A DNA stretch of 64,000 nucleotides from assembly GCF_027622875.1 (NCBI RefSeq), contig NZ_JAPZVP010000013.1, positions 62,001-126,000 on the forward strand. Direction: 5' to 3'. Under the pieces are notes generated by a model. The model had not been told where the DNA came from. It did no database searches and saw only the letters and a program-made list of their open reading frames with translations. The position numbers and the translations under genes are program-made. Positions 54,907-63,309 of the stretch are shown one piece after another; position 1 is the stretch's first letter; each line of letters begins with the position of its first letter. This DNA is from Glycomyces luteolus. GTDB lineage: Bacteria; Actinomycetota; Actinomycetes; Mycobacteriales; Micromonosporaceae.

Positions 54907-54913
54907 GCCGTCG

Positions 54914-54970
54914 ACGCTAAGGCCGCGCGCGCCCGCGCGCCCCGGTCGGGCGACTGGGCCCGGCGACTGG
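54914..54970 (-). promoter_or_regulatory. LAL-module promoter 1 (towards 54906)
   Basis: On the minus strand two CCAGTCG boxes (54964-54970 and 54951-54957), then three bases, GACCGGGG (54940-54947), 20 bases, and TAGCGT (54914-54919), seven bases from ATG 54906. Confidence 0.65.
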
Positions 54971-55016
54971 TCCCCGAACCCGGTCGGTGCGGGCGTTCGA
55001 CCTGGTGGCGGGCGTC

Positions 55017-55071
55017 CCAGTCGACCCCAGTCGAATGACAGATGCGGGCCGTCGGTACTCGTGGCTACCCT
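55017..55071 (+). promoter_or_regulatory. LAL-module promoter 2 (towards LAL regulator 1)
   Basis: CCAGTCG at 55017 and 55027 (10-base period), three bases, GACAGATG (55037-55044), 21 bases, TACCCT (55066-55071). The GTG start is 36 bases further, after a GGAG. Confidence 0.7.
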
Positions 55072-55107
55072 GGAGGAGTCCCCGGTCGTCCTGAGGATGG
55101 AGCCGCC

Positions 55108-57909
55108 GTGAAACCCATCGCCGACAGCACGCGCGCGCGCCAGGACGCCGCCGGTGCCCCATCGCTCCTCGACGAGCCCGACCTCGATCGCCCGGTCCTG
55201 TACGGCCGCGACGCCGAGCTCGATTCGATCCAGGCCCTCCTCGACGGCGCCCGCGTCGGCCACGGCGGCGCGCTCGTCGTGCGCGGCGAGCCCGGGATCG
55301 GCAAGTCCGCGATCGTCGACGCCGTCATCCCGCGCGCCGAGGGCTTCACCGTCCTGCGCACCCTCGGCGTCGAGGCCGAGCACACGTGGTCCTATGCGGG
55401 CCTGCAGATGCTGCTCCACCCGCTGCTCGACCGCGTCGACCGTCTCCCGGCCGCCCAGTCCGAGGCGCTGCGCACCGCGCTCGGCATGGGCGACGGCACC
55501 GGCCGCGCCCACTCGCTCCAGGTCGGCCTCGCCCTCTTGAACCTCCTCGTGGACGCCTCCGCGAAGCAGCCCGTGTACGTGGTCATCGACGACGCCCACT
55601 GGCTCGACCGGGACTCCACGAACGCGCTCCTGTTCGCCGCCAGGCGCCTCTCGACCGAGTCGATCACGATGGTCCTGGTCGTACGCGACGGCTTCGCCCC
55701 CGACTTCCCCGCCCCCGGCATCCCCGAGATGACCCTCGGCCCGCTCGACCTCGACGCCTCGCAGGCGATCCTCGACATGCGCACCGACGAGATCCCCTTC
55801 ACCGGCCGCGACTGGATCCTCCGCATGGCGGAAGGGAACCCGCTGGCGCTCTTGGAGCTTCCGGCCGCCGACAACGAGGAGTCGCTGCTGCGCGCCGACA
55901 CCTCCAACAGCCGCTACTCCACGACCTCGCGCATCAAGCAGGCGTTCACGGAACGCATCATCGCCCTCCCCGAGAGCACGCGCACGATCATGCTGCTCGC
56001 GGCCGCCGAGGAGACCGGTGAGACCGCCGTGATCGCCGAGGCCGCCGCGAAGCTCGACGCCAGCCTCGCCGACCTCGAACCGGCCGAAGTGGACGATCTG
56101 CTGCGCTACCACCGCGGCCGCATCGAGTTCGTGCACCCCCTGATCCGCTCCACCGCCTACCACTCGGCGCCCCGCGCCCGCCGCATCGAAGCCCACCGCG
56201 CGCTCTCCGAAGCGTTCGGCGACGGCGACATCCGCGCCGCCCGCCACCTCGCCGCCGCCACCACGGGCCTGGACGAGAAGGCCGCCGCGGCCCTCGAATC
56301 CATTGCGTCCTATGAGGCCGAACGCGGCGGCTGCGTCGCCGAGATGGCCGCCCTCGAACGCGCCGCGAGCTTCACCCCCGACCCCTGCCGCCGGGCCCGC
56401 CGCCTCACCGAGGCCGCCCAATGCGCCTATGTCGCAGGCATGACCGGCAAGGCGGTCGAACTCGCCGAGGCCGCCGAGCGCCTCACCGACGACCACGTGC
56501 TCCTCGCCCGCACCGCCCTCATCCGCGCCACGATCCTCTCCTGGGCCGGGAACTCCAAGGGTTTCGACGTGTGGATGGACTCGGCCGAGCACTACGCCGC
56601 CACCGGCCACGAGAACACCGGCTACCCGCTCCTGCGCGGCGTCTGGAACGCCTGGGAGACCGGCGATTTCACGAAGGTGAAGTACGCGTCCGGGCTCGCC
56701 TCCAAGTACGGCGGCTCCAACAACGCCTGGGTGCGCCGACTCGCCCGTGCCGCCGCCGGGCTCAACCGCCAGCCCGACGACACCGCCGGGGAAGCGGTCG
56801 ACGCGCTGCGCTCCCTCTACGACTACTACCAGCCGCTCCACGAGGACTTCCAGGCGTTCGACCAGGTTCTGGCCGCGCGCTGGCGGTTCCTCGCCGGTGA
56901 CGTGCCGGCCGCGCACCAGGCCGCGGCCGAGCAGGTGCGGGCCTGCCGTGAGCGCGGCGCGCTGAGCCCGCTCGTGCAGGCGCTGCTGGTGCAGGCGCAA
57001 ACGCAATTCCACTATGGACGATATGCGGACGCGCAGGCGTCCGCTTCCAGCGCGATCGAGCTGGCGCACGAGCAGAACGACCGCCGGGCGCTCATGCAGG
57101 GCCGCATCTGGGTGCTGCTGCCGATCGCCGCGATCAGGGGCGAGGAGCGGCGCTGCCGCGAGCTCGTGGCCGCCGCGATCCAGGACGCGCCCGAGGACTC
57201 GGTGATCCCTGCCGACACCGCGCTGGGGCTCTTGGAGCTCGGGCTCGGGCGGTACGAGGCCGCGTTCGAGCGGCTGCTGCGGATCGCCGAGGGCGTCACG
57301 CCCATGGAGGTCCTGATGCAGGTCCCGACCCTCGTGGAGGCCGCGTTCCGGTCAGGGCGGCTCGCCGAGGTCAAGGAGGCGTTCGACTGGTTCGCCGACT
57401 GGGCCGACGCCACCGGGCGGTCCTACTGGGAGGCGCTCGTGGAGCGCTGCCGCGCGCTGTTCGCGACCGAGGCCGAGGCCGGGACGCACTTCGCGCGGGC
57501 CGTGGAGCTGCACCGCGCCGACGACATCGACCCGTTCGAGCGGGCCCGCACCGAGCTGCTGTACGGCGAATGGCTGCGGCGGGTGCGGCGCATCAACGAG
57601 GCGCGGGCGCACCTGCGCGAGGCCACCGAGGTGTTCGAGCGGCTCGGCACGGTGCCGTGGACGCAACGGGCCCAAGGGGAACTGCGCGCCGCGGGCGACT
57701 CGACGGCCGTCGAGTCGAAGCCCGACCTCGCCGAACTCCTGACGCCGCAAGAGCTTCAGGTGGTGCGGCTGGCCGCCGACGGGCTCACCAACCGCCAGAT
57801 CGGCGAGCAGCTGTTCGTCAGCCCCCGCACAGTGGGCTACCACCTGTACAACGCTTACCCGAAGCTCGGCGTCTCCTCGAGGACGGAACTGGCGAAGCTC
57901 GACCTGTAG
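55108..57909 (+). CDS. LAL-type LuxR regulator 1 (large ATP-binding)
   Basis: A 933-residue MalT-like regulator. The N-terminal STAND ATPase has Walker A VRGEPGIGKSAIVDAV and Walker B VYVVIDDAHWLDRD; a long helical TPR-like middle (about residues 400-860) follows; and it ends with a LuxR HTH (LTPQELQVVRLAADGLTNRQ, IGEQLFVSPRTVGYHLYNAY, PKLGVSSRTELAKL). Such proteins activate transcription on binding an inducer and ATP. GTG 55108 follows GGAG; an ATG at 55042 would start inside the promoter. It is the likely reader of the CCAGTCG boxes, including those of its own promoter. Confidence 0.92.
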   Translation: MKPIADSTRARQDAAGAPSLLDEPDLDRPVLYGRDAELDSIQALLDGARVGHGGALVVRGEPGIGKSAIVDAVIPRAEGFTVLRTLGVEAEHTWSYAGLQMLLHPLLDRVDRLPAAQSEALRTALGMGDGTGRAHSLQVGLALLNLLVDASAKQPVYVVIDDAHWLDRDSTNALLFAARRLSTESITMVLVVRDGFAPDFPAPGIPEMTLGPLDLDASQAILDMRTDEIPFTGRDWILRMAEGNPLALLELPAADNEESLLRADTSNSRYSTTSRIKQAFTERIIALPESTRTIMLLAAAEETGETAVIAEAAAKLDASLADLEPAEVDDLLRYHRGRIEFVHPLIRSTAYHSAPRARRIEAHRALSEAFGDGDIRAARHLAAATTGLDEKAAAALESIASYEAERGGCVAEMAALERAASFTPDPCRRARRLTEAAQCAYVAGMTGKAVELAEAAERLTDDHVLLARTALIRATILSWAGNSKGFDVWMDSAEHYAATGHENTGYPLLRGVWNAWETGDFTKVKYASGLASKYGGSNNAWVRRLARAAAGLNRQPDDTAGEAVDALRSLYDYYQPLHEDFQAFDQVLAARWRFLAGDVPAAHQAAAEQVRACRERGALSPLVQALLVQAQTQFHYGRYADAQASASSAIELAHEQNDRRALMQGRIWVLLPIAAIRGEERRCRELVAAAIQDAPEDSVIPADTALGLLELGLGRYEAAFERLLRIAEGVTPMEVLMQVPTLVEAAFRSGRLAEVKEAFDWFADWADATGRSYWEALVERCRALFATEAEAGTHFARAVELHRADDIDPFERARTELLYGEWLRRVRRINEARAHLREATEVFERLGTVPWTQRAQGELRAAGDSTAVESKPDLAELLTPQELQVVRLAADGLTNRQIGEQLFVSPRTVGYHLYNAYPKLGVSSRTELAKLDL

Positions 57910-57946
57910 GCCGCGGCGGGGCATTCGGGGCGGGTCCATCCGGCTC

Positions 57947-58086
57947 CCGTCCACAAGCCCCACTCACCGCCCGTCCACAAGCCCCCACCCACCACGAGAG
58001 GGGAAGCGGCTGTAGCGCCGATCCTCCCGGCCGGGTACGACAAGACCCGGGCCCGATCCGGGCCCGGGGCGTCGTTTTTCACTCGA
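57947..58086 (-). repeat. dispersed repeat, copy 4 (diverged)
   Basis: The minus strand reads TTGTCGTACCCGGCCGGGA, GGCGCTACAG, CCCCTC-GTGGTGGGTGGGGGCTTGTGG, like copies 1-3. The CCGTCCACAAGCCCCA end is doubled. Confidence 0.75.
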
Positions 58087-58116
58087 ACAGAGTAGTGAAC
58101 CCGAGGAGGCCCCGAA

Positions 58117-59499
58117 TCACGGCGCCGCCGGCACCGGTGTCCGCCACGGTTTCGTCGTCGCCTGGAGCGCCGCGCCCAGGACGAGCATCGCCGCCACGGC
58201 CCAGGCCGAGAACCGGTACCCCTCCACGCCCGTCGAGCCCAGGCCCCAGGCCAGCGCCGCCAAGACCGGGCCCACGGACGTGCCGATCGTGCGGGTCGTC
58301 GCCATGAACGCGCCCGCGGTGCCCGACTGCTCCGCCGGGGCCGAGTCCAGCAGGTACGCGTTCATGGGGCTGTTGAAGAGCCCGAACGCCAAGCCCAGCA
58401 GGGCGATCCGCACCCCCAGGTCGACCAGGCCGGTGTCCGCCTCCACGAACAGGAGCGGCACCACCGCCGCGATCACCAGCCCCGCGCCCGCCAGCGAGAC
58501 CCGGCCGGGCCCGAACCGGTCGGCGAGCCACCCGGCCACCGGCGTCATCGCGGCCACGCCGCCGATGAACGTCAGCAGCACCGTCGACACCAGCTCCGGG
58601 CGCACCCCCTGCACGTCCGTGAGCAGGAACGGCAGGCTGAAGTTCAGCAGGCCCGTCACCGCCGACAGCAGCGTCAGGCTCAGCAGCGCCCCGCTCACCT
58701 GCGGCGACCGGAGCAGCGCCACCGTCGGCGCCGACGTCTTCTGCCGCACCCACACCGTCGCCAGGGCCACGCTCGACGCCAGGGCCGCCAACGAGATCCA
58801 GGGCGCCGAGTCGACGTACTCGAACGCGAGCAGGAACGCCGCGATCGCGCCGCCCGAGGTCGCCGTGTCCATCAGCAGCGCCCGGTCCGGCCGCGGCAGG
58901 CCTGTCCCGTTGCTCGGCACCGACACCGCCACCGCCACGAGCGCCGCCGCGGACATGGCCGCGTGCACCCAGAACAGGCCCGGCCAGTCGAAGGCCGCCA
59001 TGATGAACCCGCCCGCACCGATCATGCCCATGCCGCCCACCGTCATGAGCAGCGCGATCACGGACATCGCCCGGCCCCGCTGCTCCGGCGAGGCCGAGGT
59101 GACGATGATCCGCCCGGTCATGCCGAACAGCAGCCCGCCGAGGAGACCGCCGGCCGCGCGGGCCGCCAGCAGCAGCCCGAACGTCGGCGCGAACGCGGCG
59201 GCGACCGAGCCGACCGTCAACGCCCCCATCGCGAATACCGCGACCGCCCGCAGGTCGGCGCGGTCGGCGAGCCGCCCGGCGGCGATCGCCACCGCGCCCA
59301 TCGGCAGCGCGTAGGAGAGCAGCACCCAGGCCGTCGCGGCCTCGGTCACGTTGAAGTCGGTGCGGATCGCCGGGAGGGCGACGGCGAGGGTGGACATGCC
59401 GCCGGCGACGACGAGCTGCGCGAAGCCGACGGCGAGGATCGCTCCCCATCGGGTGGTGGTCGCGGCCTCCGGGGCCGCCGTGGTTTCCGTGGAAGTCAT
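58117..59499 (-). CDS. MFS transporter (DHA2-like exporter)
   Basis: A 460-residue transporter with 12-14 helices. GFAQLVVAGGMSTLAVALP, the motif A GRLADRADLRAVAVF, and RAAGGLLGGLLFGMTGRIIV are typical of drug/metabolite exporters. ATG 59499 is seven bases from TAGCGT. It shares the LAL-module box set with the divergent FMN reductase, so export and redox functions are probably turned on together; the substrate is unknown. Confidence 0.9.
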   Translation of the reverse strand: MTSTETTAAPEAATTTRWGAILAVGFAQLVVAGGMSTLAVALPAIRTDFNVTEAATAWVLLSYALPMGAVAIAAGRLADRADLRAVAVFAMGALTVGSVAAAFAPTFGLLLAARAAGGLLGGLLFGMTGRIIVTSASPEQRGRAMSVIALLMTVGGMGMIGAGGFIMAAFDWPGLFWVHAAMSAAALVAVAVSVPSNGTGLPRPDRALLMDTATSGGAIAAFLLAFEYVDSAPWISLAALASSVALATVWVRQKTSAPTVALLRSPQVSGALLSLTLLSAVTGLLNFSLPFLLTDVQGVRPELVSTVLLTFIGGVAAMTPVAGWLADRFGPGRVSLAGAGLVIAAVVPLLFVEADTGLVDLGVRIALLGLAFGLFNSPMNAYLLDSAPAEQSGTAGAFMATTRTIGTSVGPVLAALAWGLGSTGVEGYRFSAWAVAAMLVLGAALQATTKPWRTPVPAAP

Positions 59500-59506
59500 G
59501 GCGGCC

Positions 59507-59564
59507 ACGCTAAGCGGCGGCCGACCGGGCCCGCATCCGTCGCTCGACGGGCACACCCGACCGG
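59507..59564 (-). promoter_or_regulatory. LAL-module promoter 3 (towards MFS 59499)
   Basis: Minus strand: CCGGTCG (59558-59564), CCCGTCG (59545-59551), three bases, GACGGATG (59534-59541), 21 bases, TAGCGT (59507-59512), seven bases to ATG. Confidence 0.65.
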
Positions 59565-59616
59565 TCACTGCGCCGCGGGCCGCCGCGCCGGGCCGGCGGC
59601 GGCGTGGCCGACCGGT

Positions 59617-59672
59617 CCAGTCGCGCCCCAGTCGGCCGACAGATGTCCCGCCGGTCGAACCGTTCGTAGCGT
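59617..59672 (+). promoter_or_regulatory. LAL-module promoter 4 (towards FMN reductase)
   Basis: CCAGTCG at 59617 and 59628, three bases, GACAGATG (59638-59645), 21 bases, TAGCGT (59667-59672). The ATG lies 36 bases further with AAAGGAACGGAA before it. Confidence 0.7.
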
Positions 59673-59708
59673 CGGATCCGAACCAATCAGGCAAAGGAAC
59701 GGAACATC

Positions 59709-60311
59709 ATGAGCGACAGACTCAACCTCGGCGTCATCATCGGCTCGACCCGCGAGGGCCGCTGGGCCCCCGCCCCCGCCAAGTGGATCGCGGGCGTCGC
59801 CGAGCAGCACGGCGGCTTCGACGTCGACCTCATCGACCTCCTCGACGCCGACCTGCCACAGCACCTGGTCGAGGACGACATGTGGTCCACCGAGGCCGAC
59901 CCGTCCGCGCCCGTCGCGGCCCTCTCCGAGCGGCTCCACCGCGCGGACGCGTTCGTCGTCGTCTCCGGCGAGTACAACATGTCGATCCCCGCGTCCCTCA
60001 AGCACGCGATCGACTACTACATGAACGAGTGGGCCGCCAAGCCCGTCGCCATGGTCACCTACGGCGGCAAGATCACCGGCGGCCAGAACGCGGCCCAGCA
60101 CCTGCGCCAGATCTTCCCCGAGCTGCGCACCATGACCATCCGCAACTCGATCGCGTTCCCGCGCTTCTACCAGCACTTCGACGACCGCGGCGAGTTCACC
60201 AAGTTCGGCGAGACCGAACCGGCCGCCAAGACCCTCCTCGACGAACTCCACTGGTGGGCGCTGGCACTCGCCAACGCCCGCAACGCGACCCCGCTCCCCA
60301 GCCCCTTCTAG
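59709..60311 (+). CDS. NADPH-dependent FMN reductase-like flavoprotein
   Basis: A 200-residue flavodoxin-fold protein: LGVIIGSTREGRWAPAPAKW (phosphate loop GSTREGR), FVVVSGEYNMSIPASLKHAI with the conserved GEYN of the NADPH:FMN reductase group, and MVTYGGKITGGQNAAQHLRQ. It likely reduces FMN, azo or quinone compounds. It has the same promoter layout as its divergent exporter. Confidence 0.93.
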   Translation: MSDRLNLGVIIGSTREGRWAPAPAKWIAGVAEQHGGFDVDLIDLLDADLPQHLVEDDMWSTEADPSAPVAALSERLHRADAFVVVSGEYNMSIPASLKHAIDYYMNEWAAKPVAMVTYGGKITGGQNAAQHLRQIFPELRTMTIRNSIAFPRFYQHFDDRGEFTKFGETEPAAKTLLDELHWWALALANARNATPLPSPF

Positions 60312-60384
60312 TCCCCGCCGGACCGGGTTGAGGGGCTGCCCTGCGGATCAGGTCATCCGGCCCGTTGGTCCGCGCCGCGTTGTC

Positions 60385-60418
60385 GGCCCCCCCGATGCAA
60401 CACCGGTATCGGGGGGCC
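60385..60418 (+). terminator. terminator after FMN reductase
   Basis: A long GC stem (60385-60396 with 60408-60418, one bulged C) followed by TTCC. Confidence 0.7.
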
Positions 60419-60567
60419 TTCCGCGGCGATGCTTGCGAGCCGTCAATCAGTAGAGCGAGAGCGAACGAACGGACTCGGATACCGCCGCTCCCCGATCCGC
60501 AAGGGAGTCCCTAGGCAATACGTCCTAGGACCCGGTCCGGGGCCCTGGCGCCGCGCGAATGCGCCGG

Positions 60568-60573
60568 TACCGT
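60568..60573 (+). promoter_or_regulatory. -10 box, leaderless promoter of LAL regulator 2
   Basis: TACCGT six bases from GTG 60580. An imperfect inverted repeat GTCCCTAGG/CCTAGGAC lies about 40-60 bases upstream. The CCAGTCG boxes of the other four promoters are absent. Confidence 0.5.
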
Positions 60574-60579
60574 TGAACC

Positions 60580-63309
60580 GTGCTGTACGGACGCGACACC
60601 GAGACCGCCGCCCTCGCCGACCGCTTGGCCGCCGCCCGCGAGGGCCGAGGTTCGGCCCTCGTCGTGCGCGGTGAAGCCGGCATCGGCAAATCGAGCCTGG
60701 TCGCCGCCACCGCCGAGAACGCCGCCGACGTCACCGTGCTGCGCTGCACCGGCGTCGAATCCGAGCACGCCTGGTCCTTCGCCGGCCTCCAAGCGCTCCT
60801 CCTGCCCCTGGCCGGGCACCTCGAGGCCATCCCCGAGCACCACGCGTGCGTCCTCTCCCGCACCCTCGGCCTCGACCCCGCCCCCGAGAAGGAAGCGCCG
60901 CCCGGGGACCTGCGCTTCACCGTCGGCCTCGCCGCCCTCAGCCTCCTCACCGAAGCCGCCGGGCACCGGCCTGTGCTCTGCATCGTCGAAGACGCCCACT
61001 GGCTCGACCCCGACTCCGCCGACGTCCTGCTCTTCATCGCCAAACGCCTTGCAGCCGAGGCGGCCCTGATGATCTTCACCGTCCGCGAAGGCTACGCTCC
61101 CGACTTCCCCACCCCCGGTCTCGACGAACTCCGCCTCGGCCCGCTCGACGACGCCGCCGCCGCGTCGCTCCTCGCCGAGCGCCTCGGCGGCCACACCCAC
61201 GCCGACAGGGGCCGGATCCTGCACTCAGCCGAAGGCAACCCCCTCGCGCTCCTGGAACTGCCGCTTGTGGAATCCGACACGCGCCTCGCCGCCGACTGGA
61301 CCGGGCGGCGCTCCACCACCAGCCGCCTCAAGCAGGTCTTCGGCGACCGCATCGACCGCCTCCCCGAACCCACCCGCACCCTCCTCCTCGTCATCGCCGC
61401 CGACGACACCGCCGACACCGGTCTCGTCCTCGACGTCGCCGCGAAGCTCGGCGCCCAGCTCACCGACCTCGCCCCCGCCGAAGCCGACGACCTCGTGCGC
61501 TTCCACGGCGACCGCTTCACCTTCGGCCACCCCCTCATCCGCACCGCCGCCTACCAGGGCGCGCCGGTCTTCCGGCGCCTCGAGGCCCACCGCGTGTACA
61601 CCGAGATCATGGGCGCCGACGACCACCGCCGCGTCCTCCACCTCGCCGCCGCCGCGACCGGACCGGACGAAGCCGTCGCCGCCGCCCTCGAAGCCGCCGC
61701 CGACTGCGGCTCCACCTGCGGCGGGCACGGCTACGAGTACACGGTGTTCGAACGCGCCGCCGCGTTCACCCCGGACCCGCGCGAACGGGGCCGCAGGCTC
61801 CTGCGCGCCGCCGAAGCCGCCGTCGCGGCGGGCAACGGCCCCAAGGCCCGCGCCCTGTCCATCCAGATCGGACGGATCACCGAGGACCGCGCGATCCTCG
61901 CCCGCGCCACCCTCATGGCCGCGATGGTCGCCGCCTGGGACAACGACATCCGCGAGTCCTACCGGCTCTACATGGAGGCCGCCGACCACTACGTCGCCGC
62001 CGACATCACCTCCACGGGCTATCCGCTGTTCCGCGCGGTCGAACTCGCCTGGCAGGCAGGGGACTTCTCCCGCGCGGAGGTCGCCGCCGAATACGCCGAG
62101 CGCCTCGGCATCGACCACTCCCCGTGGGTGCGGGACCTCGCGAAGGCCACTGCCGGGCTCAACCGCTCCTGCACCGTCACCGTCGCGGAGGCGGTCGCCG
62201 CACTCCGGAACCTGATCGACATCCACCTCGGCTTCGGCGAATCCGTCTCCCCCGAGAACCGCGCGATGGTCGCCTGGTGGCAGACCCTCATCGGCGACAT
62301 CGACGCCGCCGAGCAGACCGCTTCCGGCACGGTGCACGCGGCCCGCACCACCGGGGCGGCCGGAGCCCTCCCGAGAGCGCTCACGCTCAACGCGATCACC
62401 GAGTTCCACAGGGGCCGTTGGAAGGACGCCGAAGCGCTCGCCTGGAACGCCGTCGAGTTCTCGATCGAGCTCGGGCAGCGGATCGGGCCCGTCAAGGCCC
62501 GCGCCCACGTGCTCGCCCCGATCGCGGCCCTGCGCGGCGAGGAGGAACGCGTGCGCGAACTCGTGGAGGACGCGCATGCCGGTTCACCGGGCGACACGGT
62601 CGTCGCCATCGACAACGCGCTCGCCCTCCTCGACATCGCGCTGGGGCGCAACGAGGAAGCGCTCGACCGCTTCATGATGCAACTCGAGTCCAGCGCGCCC
62701 GGCGAAGCGCTCGACTGGGTGCCGTTCGCCGTCGAGGCGGCGGTGCGCGCGGGCGAACCGGAGCGGGTCGCGGGCGCGTTCGACTGGTTCACGCAGTGGG
62801 CCGAGGCGAGCGGGCAGCCGCATCTGATGGCTCAGGTCGAACGCTGCCGGGGCCTGCTCGCGGACGAGCAGGAGGCCGGGGCGCACTACCAGCGCGCCGC
62901 CGAACTGCACAAGGAGACCGACGCGCTGTTCCCGTTCGAGTCCGCGCGCACCGACCTCGTCTTCGGCGAATGGCTGCGCCGGGCCCGGCGCGTCAACGAG
63001 GCGAAGACCCGGTTGCGTTCGGCCGCAGCGGTGTTCGAGCGGCTCGGGGCCGAGCCGTGGAGCGAGCGTGTGCGCAGGGAGCTGCGCGCCGCCGGCGACG
63101 CGGGCCCTATCGAGGCCGCTCCCGACCTCGCCGGCAAGCTCACTCCGCAAGAGCTGCAAGTGGTCCGGCTCGCCGCGGCCGGTCTCAGCAACCGCGAGAT
63201 CGGCGAGCAGCTCTACCTGAGCCCGCGGACGGCCGGATACCACCTGTACAAGGCCTATCCGAAGCTCGGCGTGGCCTCACGGAACGACCTGGCCAAGCTC
63301 GGCCTGTAG
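60580..63309 (+). CDS. LAL-type LuxR regulator 2
   Basis: A 909-residue paralogue of regulator 1 with the same order: Walker A VRGEAGIGKSSLVAAT, Walker B LCIVEDAHWLDPDS, a helical repeat middle, and a LuxR HTH (LTPQELQVVRLAAAGLSNRE, IGEQLYLSPRTAGYHLYKAY, PKLGVASRNDLAKL). The recognition helix differs at a few positions (LYLSPRTAGY against LFVSPRTVGY). The start is a GTG without extra N-terminal tail and is probably leaderless. The pair suggests duplication followed by split inducer specificity. Confidence 0.92.
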   Translation: MLYGRDTETAALADRLAAAREGRGSALVVRGEAGIGKSSLVAATAENAADVTVLRCTGVESEHAWSFAGLQALLLPLAGHLEAIPEHHACVLSRTLGLDPAPEKEAPPGDLRFTVGLAALSLLTEAAGHRPVLCIVEDAHWLDPDSADVLLFIAKRLAAEAALMIFTVREGYAPDFPTPGLDELRLGPLDDAAAASLLAERLGGHTHADRGRILHSAEGNPLALLELPLVESDTRLAADWTGRRSTTSRLKQVFGDRIDRLPEPTRTLLLVIAADDTADTGLVLDVAAKLGAQLTDLAPAEADDLVRFHGDRFTFGHPLIRTAAYQGAPVFRRLEAHRVYTEIMGADDHRRVLHLAAAATGPDEAVAAALEAAADCGSTCGGHGYEYTVFERAAAFTPDPRERGRRLLRAAEAAVAAGNGPKARALSIQIGRITEDRAILARATLMAAMVAAWDNDIRESYRLYMEAADHYVAADITSTGYPLFRAVELAWQAGDFSRAEVAAEYAERLGIDHSPWVRDLAKATAGLNRSCTVTVAEAVAALRNLIDIHLGFGESVSPENRAMVAWWQTLIGDIDAAEQTASGTVHAARTTGAAGALPRALTLNAITEFHRGRWKDAEALAWNAVEFSIELGQRIGPVKARAHVLAPIAALRGEEERVRELVEDAHAGSPGDTVVAIDNALALLDIALGRNEEALDRFMMQLESSAPGEALDWVPFAVEAAVRAGEPERVAGAFDWFTQWAEASGQPHLMAQVERCRGLLADEQEAGAHYQRAAELHKETDALFPFESARTDLVFGEWLRRARRVNEAKTRLRSAAAVFERLGAEPWSERVRRELRAAGDAGPIEAAPDLAGKLTPQELQVVRLAAAGLSNREIGEQLYLSPRTAGYHLYKAYPKLGVASRNDLAKLGL

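Follow-up and report, generated by a model that had tools for sequence, protein, structure and literature searches.

A palindrome at fixed distance from the −10 element is a probable LAL operator at efflux and redox genes of Glycomyces

We analysed a 64,000-nucleotide stretch of the Glycomyces luteolus genome (contig NZ_JAPZVP010000013.1, positions 62,001 to 126,000; hereafter the window), in which the gene for a LAL (MalT-like AAA/LuxR) regulator, LAL1, is clustered with genes for a membrane protein, an MFS exporter, an FMN reductase and a second LAL protein, LAL2. Four promoters in two divergent gaps of this module, termed A and B, carry the same palindrome at a nearly constant distance upstream of the −10 element. 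We consider it probable that this palindrome is the operator of a LAL regulon and that the efflux and redox genes downstream of it are controlled by class II activation. Binding by LAL proteins (LAL1, LAL2 or both) is suggested by their co-occurrence with the site, and activation is proposed because the distance to the −10 element is fixed.

At all four promoters (A+, LAL1; A−, membrane protein; B+, FMN reductase; B−, MFS exporter), the core is a 7-2-7 palindrome, CCNGTCR-NN-YGACNGATG (Table 1). A first-pass annotation of this DNA had described two tandem boxes followed by a GAC(A/G)GATG-like third element and a −10 element, and re-reading every box at its coordinates reproduced the shared arrangement, including the box periods (10, 13, 11 and 13 in A+, A−, B+ and B−, respectively) and a spacer of 21 bases in three promoters that is one base shorter in A−. 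The third element is as described in A+, B+ and B−; in A− it reads GACCGGGG, which matches GACAGATG poorly, and only YGACNG is common to all four promoters. YGACNG is the inverted half-site of box 2, and box 2 and the third element therefore form a palindrome, whose arms are imperfect in A+ (TGAC) and in several further sites. The offset from GAC to the first base of TAnnnT is 26 bases, except in A−, where it is 25. In A− and B−, TAnnnT ends 7 bases short of the ATG, a spacing like that of leaderless genes and one that supports its assignment as the −10 element; both promoters look leaderless, and this spacing would place the palindrome centre near −43/−44. Relative to these predicted starts, the site falls within the range of class II activators (centre near −41 to −45, in fixed phase to the −10 element, here at an offset of 26 or 25), and no TTGACA was recognizable by eye 16–18 bases from the −10 element. 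The palindrome followed by 22–23 bases and TAnnnT occurs four times in the window, each time at a named promoter, and not once in 20,000 first-order Markov simulations of both gaps. Direct CCNGTCG pairs with a period of 10–13 were likewise observed four times, against 0.012 expected per simulated gap pair.

Table 1 Predicted operator elements and genes of the LAL module, in window coordinates
Feature	Position	Strand	Remarks
Membrane protein gene, 202 aa	54298..54906	−	Predicted target of A−
A− −10 element TAGCGT	54914..54919	−	25 bases after GAC, 7 before ATG (leaderless)
A− core CCAGTCG-CC-CGACCGG	54942..54957	−	Box 54957-54951, CGACCGG 54948-54942
A− accessory half-site CCAGTCG	54964..54970	−	Period 13
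A+ accessory half-site CCAGTCG	55017..55023	+	Upstream, period 10 to palindrome
A+ core CCAGTCG-AA-TGACAGATG	55027..55044	+	Left box 55027-55033, TGACAGATG 55036-55044
A+ −10 element TACCCT	55066..55071	+	26 bases after GAC, 21-base spacer; predicted transcription start
LAL1 gene, 933 aa, AAA_16 and C-terminal GerE	55108..57909	+	Pfam; likely regulator and autoregulated target
MFS exporter gene	58117..59499	−	MFS_1, E 6.6e-59; predicted target of B−
B− −10 element TAGCGT	59507..59512	−	26 bases after GAC, 7 before ATG (leaderless)
B− accessory half-site CCGGTCG, in spacer	59522..59528	−	At +23
B− core CCCGTCG-AG-CGACGGATG	59534..59551	−	Box 59551-59545, CGACGGATG 59542-59534
B− accessory half-site CCGGTCG	59558..59564	−	Period 13
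B+ accessory half-site CCAGTCG	59617..59623	+	Period 11
B+ core CCAGTCG-GC-CGACAGATG	59628..59645	+	Box 59628-59634, CGACAGATG 59637-59645
B+ second accessory half-site CCGGTCG, in spacer	59651..59657	+	+23 from first base of palindrome
B+ −10 element TAGCGT	59667..59672	+	26 bases after GAC
NADPH-dependent FMN reductase gene	59709..60311	+	FMN_red, E 7.4e-37; predicted target of B+
LAL2 gene, 909 aa, AAA_16 and GerE	60580..63309	+	Helix-turn-helix (HTH) closely similar to that of LAL1; alternative or second regulator

Our Glycomyces set comprised 21 loci, the window included, two of which stop before the B gap. The palindrome is followed by TAnnnT at 25 or 26 bases in A+ (21 of 21 loci), A− (21 of 21, always at 25), B+ (19 of 19, always at 26) and B− (13 of 19), and 74 of the 87 TAnnnT matches at these module sites lie 26 (or 25) bases after GAC. 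The distance from TAnnnT to the ATG is 7 bases in 19 of 21 A− promoters, with 6 in the remaining two, and in 12 of 13 B− promoters, with 8 in one. The first-pass annotation had made its proposal depend on conservation in orthologous divergent gaps, and the palindrome and TAnnnT are indeed kept across the Glycomyces loci. Because the palindrome lies at the start of LAL1 itself in all 21, we count it as evidence for autoregulation.

Upstream box 1 is kept in 20 of 21 loci at A− (−13), 16 of 19 at B+ (−11), 9 of 13 at B− (−13) and 9 of 21 at A+ (−10), and a half-site at +23 in the spacer is found in 13 of 19 B+ and 7 of 13 B− promoters. A tandem-repeat, SARP-like core was rejected: only 9 of 21 LAL1 promoters retain box 1, whereas all 21 have the inverted arm. 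SARP heptamer operators consist of direct repeats immediately upstream of the −10 element, bound by the SARP domain, and the core here is inverted. The annotated dimer on tandem half-sites about 50–70 bases before the start thus gives way to an inverted palindrome near −43/−44; box 1 appears to be an accessory half-site, less conserved than the palindrome. The earlier interpretation identified the right kind of system but not the correct geometry for its binding site, and its prediction of one regulon with constant spacing upstream of the −10 element is supported.

GAC(A/G)GATG is the best-conserved part of the design and stands at a fixed distance from TAnnnT, as would also hold if GACNGATG served an alternative sigma factor as its −35-like element, with a spacer of unusual length, and all else were GC-rich background. 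We regard this explanation as very unlikely: the left arm, GTCR, is also conserved, 2 bases from the right arm; the usual −35/−10 spacing is shorter than 21 bases; and the variants TACCCT, TAGCGT, TACAGT and TACGGT fit the housekeeping TAnnnT class.

In the host genome, CCNGTCGNNYGACNGR gave 26 matches at 20 places, compared to 5 in the control, and only the four module promoters combine it with an upstream box and a −10 element at the right distance (22 or 23 bases after the 16-base match, equal to 25 or 26 after GAC). At a fifth CCNGTCGNNYGACNGR place (L090), TAnnnT is 1–2 bases nearer, there is no upstream box and the match apparently lies inside coding sequence. When one mismatch was allowed, the looser RGTCRNNYGACRGAKG matched 33 times and its control 30 times, a count that is uninformative without the geometry. 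When the next 70 bases of 30 such sites were read, TAnnnT was found at 26 in six and at 53 in one, that is, with the geometry in 6 of 7 matches. Three of the six are module promoters, and three are new: they precede a zinc-type dehydrogenase/quinone-oxidoreductase-like gene (QOR; contig C34), a VTT-domain (DedA-like) gene (C5, outside the window, L225:8348) and a gene for a Cys/Met-metabolism PLP enzyme (CGL; C8). The regulon predicted by the annotation is supported and also reaches beyond the module, to the QOR gene elsewhere in the genome.

The name QOR is our reading of the sequence, for which Pfam gives zinc-binding dehydrogenase. The gene is present in 19 of 22 Glycomyces genomes (E ≤ 1e-100), and GAC-N26-TAnnnT lies upstream of all 19 orthologues; in all 19 genomes (L227–L245) it is the spacer that holds the third half-site, at +23, rather than the upstream region. 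The location of the third half-site varies between promoters, yet it is fixed for each gene. Directly upstream of QOR, on the same strand, L224:7037-10084 encodes a large regulator that by eye looks like BTAD/AfsR. The VTT-domain gene, about 8 kb beyond the end of the window, has the exact geometry and a leaderless GTG start, and its site was seen in one genome only. For CGL, a site with the geometry is present in 12 of 30 loci, many of the others being paralogues with different promoters, so that orthologues and paralogues are counted together.

Beyond the genus, a first set selected for LAL genes comprised 58 non-Glycomyces loci with LAL relatives of 32–48% identity. Eleven of these loci together hold 13 occurrences of GTCRNNYGAC with TAnnnT 24–28 bases on; the controls (three changed words and two shifted windows) gave 1, 1, 0, 0 and 0 matches. 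The exact offset is 26 in 11 cases and 25 in two, with at most two at any other value; 13 of 24 TAnnnT matches fall at 25 or 26. Looser palindromes in this set gave 12 matches at 26, two at 25 and five at 59, of 42. The result was replicated in 26 further LAL loci (147 kb, 1.5-kb flanks), where five sites at 25 or 26 were found in four loci, of nine TAnnnT matches. Some LAL loci, such as L027, have the right arm only, at the same distance from TAnnnT. Genes downstream of the sites encode FMN reductases (L025, L026 and L069), an MFS protein and an FMN reductase sharing one site (L023), a SnoaL-like protein (L063, with a similar, unscanned gene at L024), a DsbA-like protein (L070), an HXXEE membrane protein (L056, with a similar, unscanned gene at L058), an FAD-binding oxidoreductase (L030) and a LAL protein itself (L051).

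At L023 (590-700; a metagenome-assembled actinomycete), the gap between the diverging genes for the MFS protein and the FMN reductase contains a long, perfect palindrome, which stands 21 bases from the −10 element on either side and serves both promoters, as a minimal form of the B gap. One palindrome serving two divergent promoters would also suit a LAL protein that represses, blocking polymerase by binding beside the −10 element until a ligand releases it. The Streptomyces coelicolor LAL SCO6993 is a repressor and binds palindromes that include two in its own promoter region (PMC9628970). Even so, repression seems improbable here: the distance to the −10 element is fixed across genera, whereas repressor sites tolerate variation, and the lack of a recognizable TTGACA (by eye, at 16–18 bases) is as expected of an activator.

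A scan blind to LAL genes, using CMRGTCRNNYGACRGATG across 394 genomes of the class, returned 63 sites in 53 genomes, compared to 15 in the control. All 61 sites outside the host genome were read, from 60 stretches: TAnnnT lies at 26 in seven, at 30 in one and at 58 in one, so that 7 of 9 matches in other genomes of the class have the geometry. Looser palindromes in the class-wide set gave seven at 26, of 34. The remaining 54 of the 61 sites look coding or random. This background, together with the frequency of the loose palindrome without geometry in the host genome (33 against 30 in the control), is what one would expect if GTCG/CGAC words, which abound in GC-rich actinobacterial DNA, had come together by chance; with the geometry, the site is rare and conserved. 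Overall, we give chance almost no weight. At the four module promoters and at that of QOR, it is refuted, and the VTT-domain and Cys/Met genes remain single-genome candidates.

Targets of the seven class-wide sites with the geometry include RibD_C-type genes (L155, L157, L159 and L160, of which L155 was scanned and the other three are closely similar), a mycothiol maleylpyruvate isomerase-type gene (L158) and an NmrA-like gene (L171); at L156, our script found no target gene. Two further settings may reflect other uses of the palindrome. At L163 (7018 and 7787) and L162, CCAGTCNNNTGACNGATG sites are followed by a near-identical GCGGTGTTGTTGATCTTG context, twice within less than 800 bases in one genome, which suggests a repeated element. 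At L186 and L188 (near 7000), in two genomes of one genus, a site with conserved flanks (GAAAGCACCGGTCATGTGACAGATGTTGCCCGATCCCCTTTC) has no TAnnnT at 26 and is perhaps another conserved operator.

The class-wide sites also bear on whether the palindrome belongs to another regulator, such as a NarL-type response regulator or a TetR/MarR-type protein, with the LAL genes merely among its targets. The 7-2-7 inverted repeat is a known site type of NarL-type response regulators, four of the seven class-wide sites with the geometry are far from a LAL gene, and targets such as QOR are far from LAL1 in the same genome. We nevertheless judge another regulator unlikely, because the site recurs beside LAL genes in two LAL-selected sets and its presence matches the LAL recognition helix (below). 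A LAL gene lies within 7 kb (tblastn score >100) of three of the seven sites with the geometry and of none of the 54 without it (Fisher p 0.001), proximity having been scored for the LAL family alone. All six genomes with such sites have a LAL at E ≤ 1e-60, compared to 135 of 387 others, counts that are lower bounds because two candidates were scored per genome. In genus g46, the five genomes with sites all have LALs, as do three of the seven without sites. The strict site with the geometry occurs three times in 0.80 Mb of LAL loci and seven times in 393 whole genomes; in genome G368, a second such site lies inside a LAL locus, upstream of the LAL gene (L276).

Among 108 non-Glycomyces loci, 20 have a LAL with a GYH recognition helix, and 10 of these carry the operator with the geometry, compared to 5 of the 88 others (p 9e-6), with flanks of 6 kb or 1.5 kb depending on the set, L023 dropped as its LAL is cut off, and related species that are not independent. 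The helix SPRTVGYHLYNAYPKLG is common to all 20 Glycomyces LAL1 orthologues, and that of LAL2 is SPRTAGYHLYKAYPKLG; because the two are alike, both proteins could bind the same site.

Several observations weigh against a LAL-activated regulon. The exact pattern is absent from 47 of the 58 non-Glycomyces LAL loci in the first set, the B− palindrome is missing in 6 of 19 Glycomyces loci, and no operator was seen at the start of LAL2 itself (window 60312-60580). No LAL gene lies within 7 kb of four of the seven class-wide sites with the geometry. The seven sites come from six genomes, five of them belonging to one genus, so these samples are not independent. The GYH criterion was picked after the helices had been seen, and three GHH LALs (L290, L294 and L295) have a site just beyond 1.5 kb; counting the GHH loci as positive changes the comparison to 10 of 20 versus 8 of 88 (p 9e-5). 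Finally, activation rather than repression is read from position.

MalT, the archetype of the LAL family, is an ATP-binding, oligomeric activator of the LuxR family that uses several sites per promoter. Its boxes, hexamer-type motifs without symmetry, are arrayed in both direct and inverted orientation, whereas the palindrome described here is fixed. The nearest described architecture is the 7-2-7 site of Escherichia coli NarL (yeaR and ogt), which shares the two inverted 7-base arms 2 bases apart, extra single elements at some promoters and, in the candidate regulator, a GerE/NarL-type HTH. The half-sites differ by eye (NarL consensus TACYNMT versus CCNGTCG). NarL is a phosphorylated response regulator, whereas the candidate here is a large AAA/LuxR protein; here, moreover, every promoter keeps a fixed distance to the −10 element, with the extra half-site placed at −10/−11/−13 or +23. 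NarL dimers bind 7-2-7 inverted repeats, sometimes plus single 7-base elements, and one of the sites at ogt has its centre at −44.5 and abuts the −35 element (PMC7419079).

SCO6993 binds short palindromes, its own promoter included, and the authors of that study report no homology between its sites and a consensus that could not be predicted (PMC9628970). The protected sequences given there do not resemble CCNGTCR-NN-YGACNG by eye, and SCO6993 represses. PimR-type SARP-LAL regulators recognize heptamer direct repeats with 3–4 bases between them and a period of 10 or 11 (PMC5930380), a spacing that resembles the tandem boxes of the first-pass annotation. PimR binds through its N-terminal SARP domain and has no LuxR HTH, and its consensus is CGGCAAG (PMC5930380). 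No described operator with this sequence or consensus was found in the literature searched. On our best reading, what is new would be that a subfamily of LAL regulators has an operator of the NarL-like type, unusually rigid in its spacing and conserved throughout the genus and beyond it.

Within the module, LAL1 is bounded by a divergent gap, and the MFS exporter/FMN reductase pair follows with a divergent gap of its own, and then LAL2. AAA_16 spans residues 31-186 of LAL1 and 2-160 of LAL2, GerE was matched at E-values of 6.6e-17 and 8.2e-13, respectively, and no SARP/BTAD domain was among the Pfam matches of either protein. The closest relatives of LAL1 are Glycomyces proteins of 97–99% identity. 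The membrane protein has no Pfam family at E 0.001. LAL2 apparently has a leaderless promoter of its own (TACCGT, then GTG after six bases), and the stretch between the FMN reductase gene and LAL2 holds a GC-rich hairpin that may be a terminator.

In the mechanism that we propose, a GerE-domain dimer of LAL1, possibly also of LAL2, would bind the 7-2-7 palindrome near −43/−44, where the palindrome abuts the position of the missing −35 element, and would recruit the housekeeping RNA polymerase to the TAnnnT −10 element (class II activation). One further LAL protomer may occupy the single extra half-site, either upstream at −10/−11/−13 or in the spacer at +23. Upon signal, LAL1 would raise its own transcription together with that of the exporter, the FMN reductase, the membrane protein and the distant QOR-like enzyme. 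The targets combine an exporter with mainly flavin-, NAD(P)-dependent or thiol enzymes, and, judging from these gene families, the regulon therefore likely responds to quinones, electrophiles or a xenobiotic. The design probably marks a small set of co-activated detoxification genes.

More broadly, and with less assurance than for the module itself, we favour the view that this 'LAL box', CCNGTCR-NN-YGACNGATG-N21-TAnnnT, is the consensus operator of an actinobacterial LAL subfamily with a GYHL helix. It would be found in several families, with fixed class II geometry, often leaderless promoters, an efflux and redox/electrophile-detoxification regulon and a third half-site that, at one of a small number of allowed positions, would point to an oligomer of LAL instead of a dimer. 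Although actinobacteria have many LAL proteins, a consensus site was unavailable in the literature searched. A site of fixed geometry would let regulons be predicted from sequence and would tie orphan LALs to FMN reductase, quinone-oxidoreductase-like, RibD_C, DsbA, SnoaL-like and mycothiol-dependent isomerase-like enzymes. Promoters with the operator would serve as ready reporters for finding the signal, and the variable third half-site would allow the contact between an oligomeric AAA/LuxR activator and polymerase to be tested directly.

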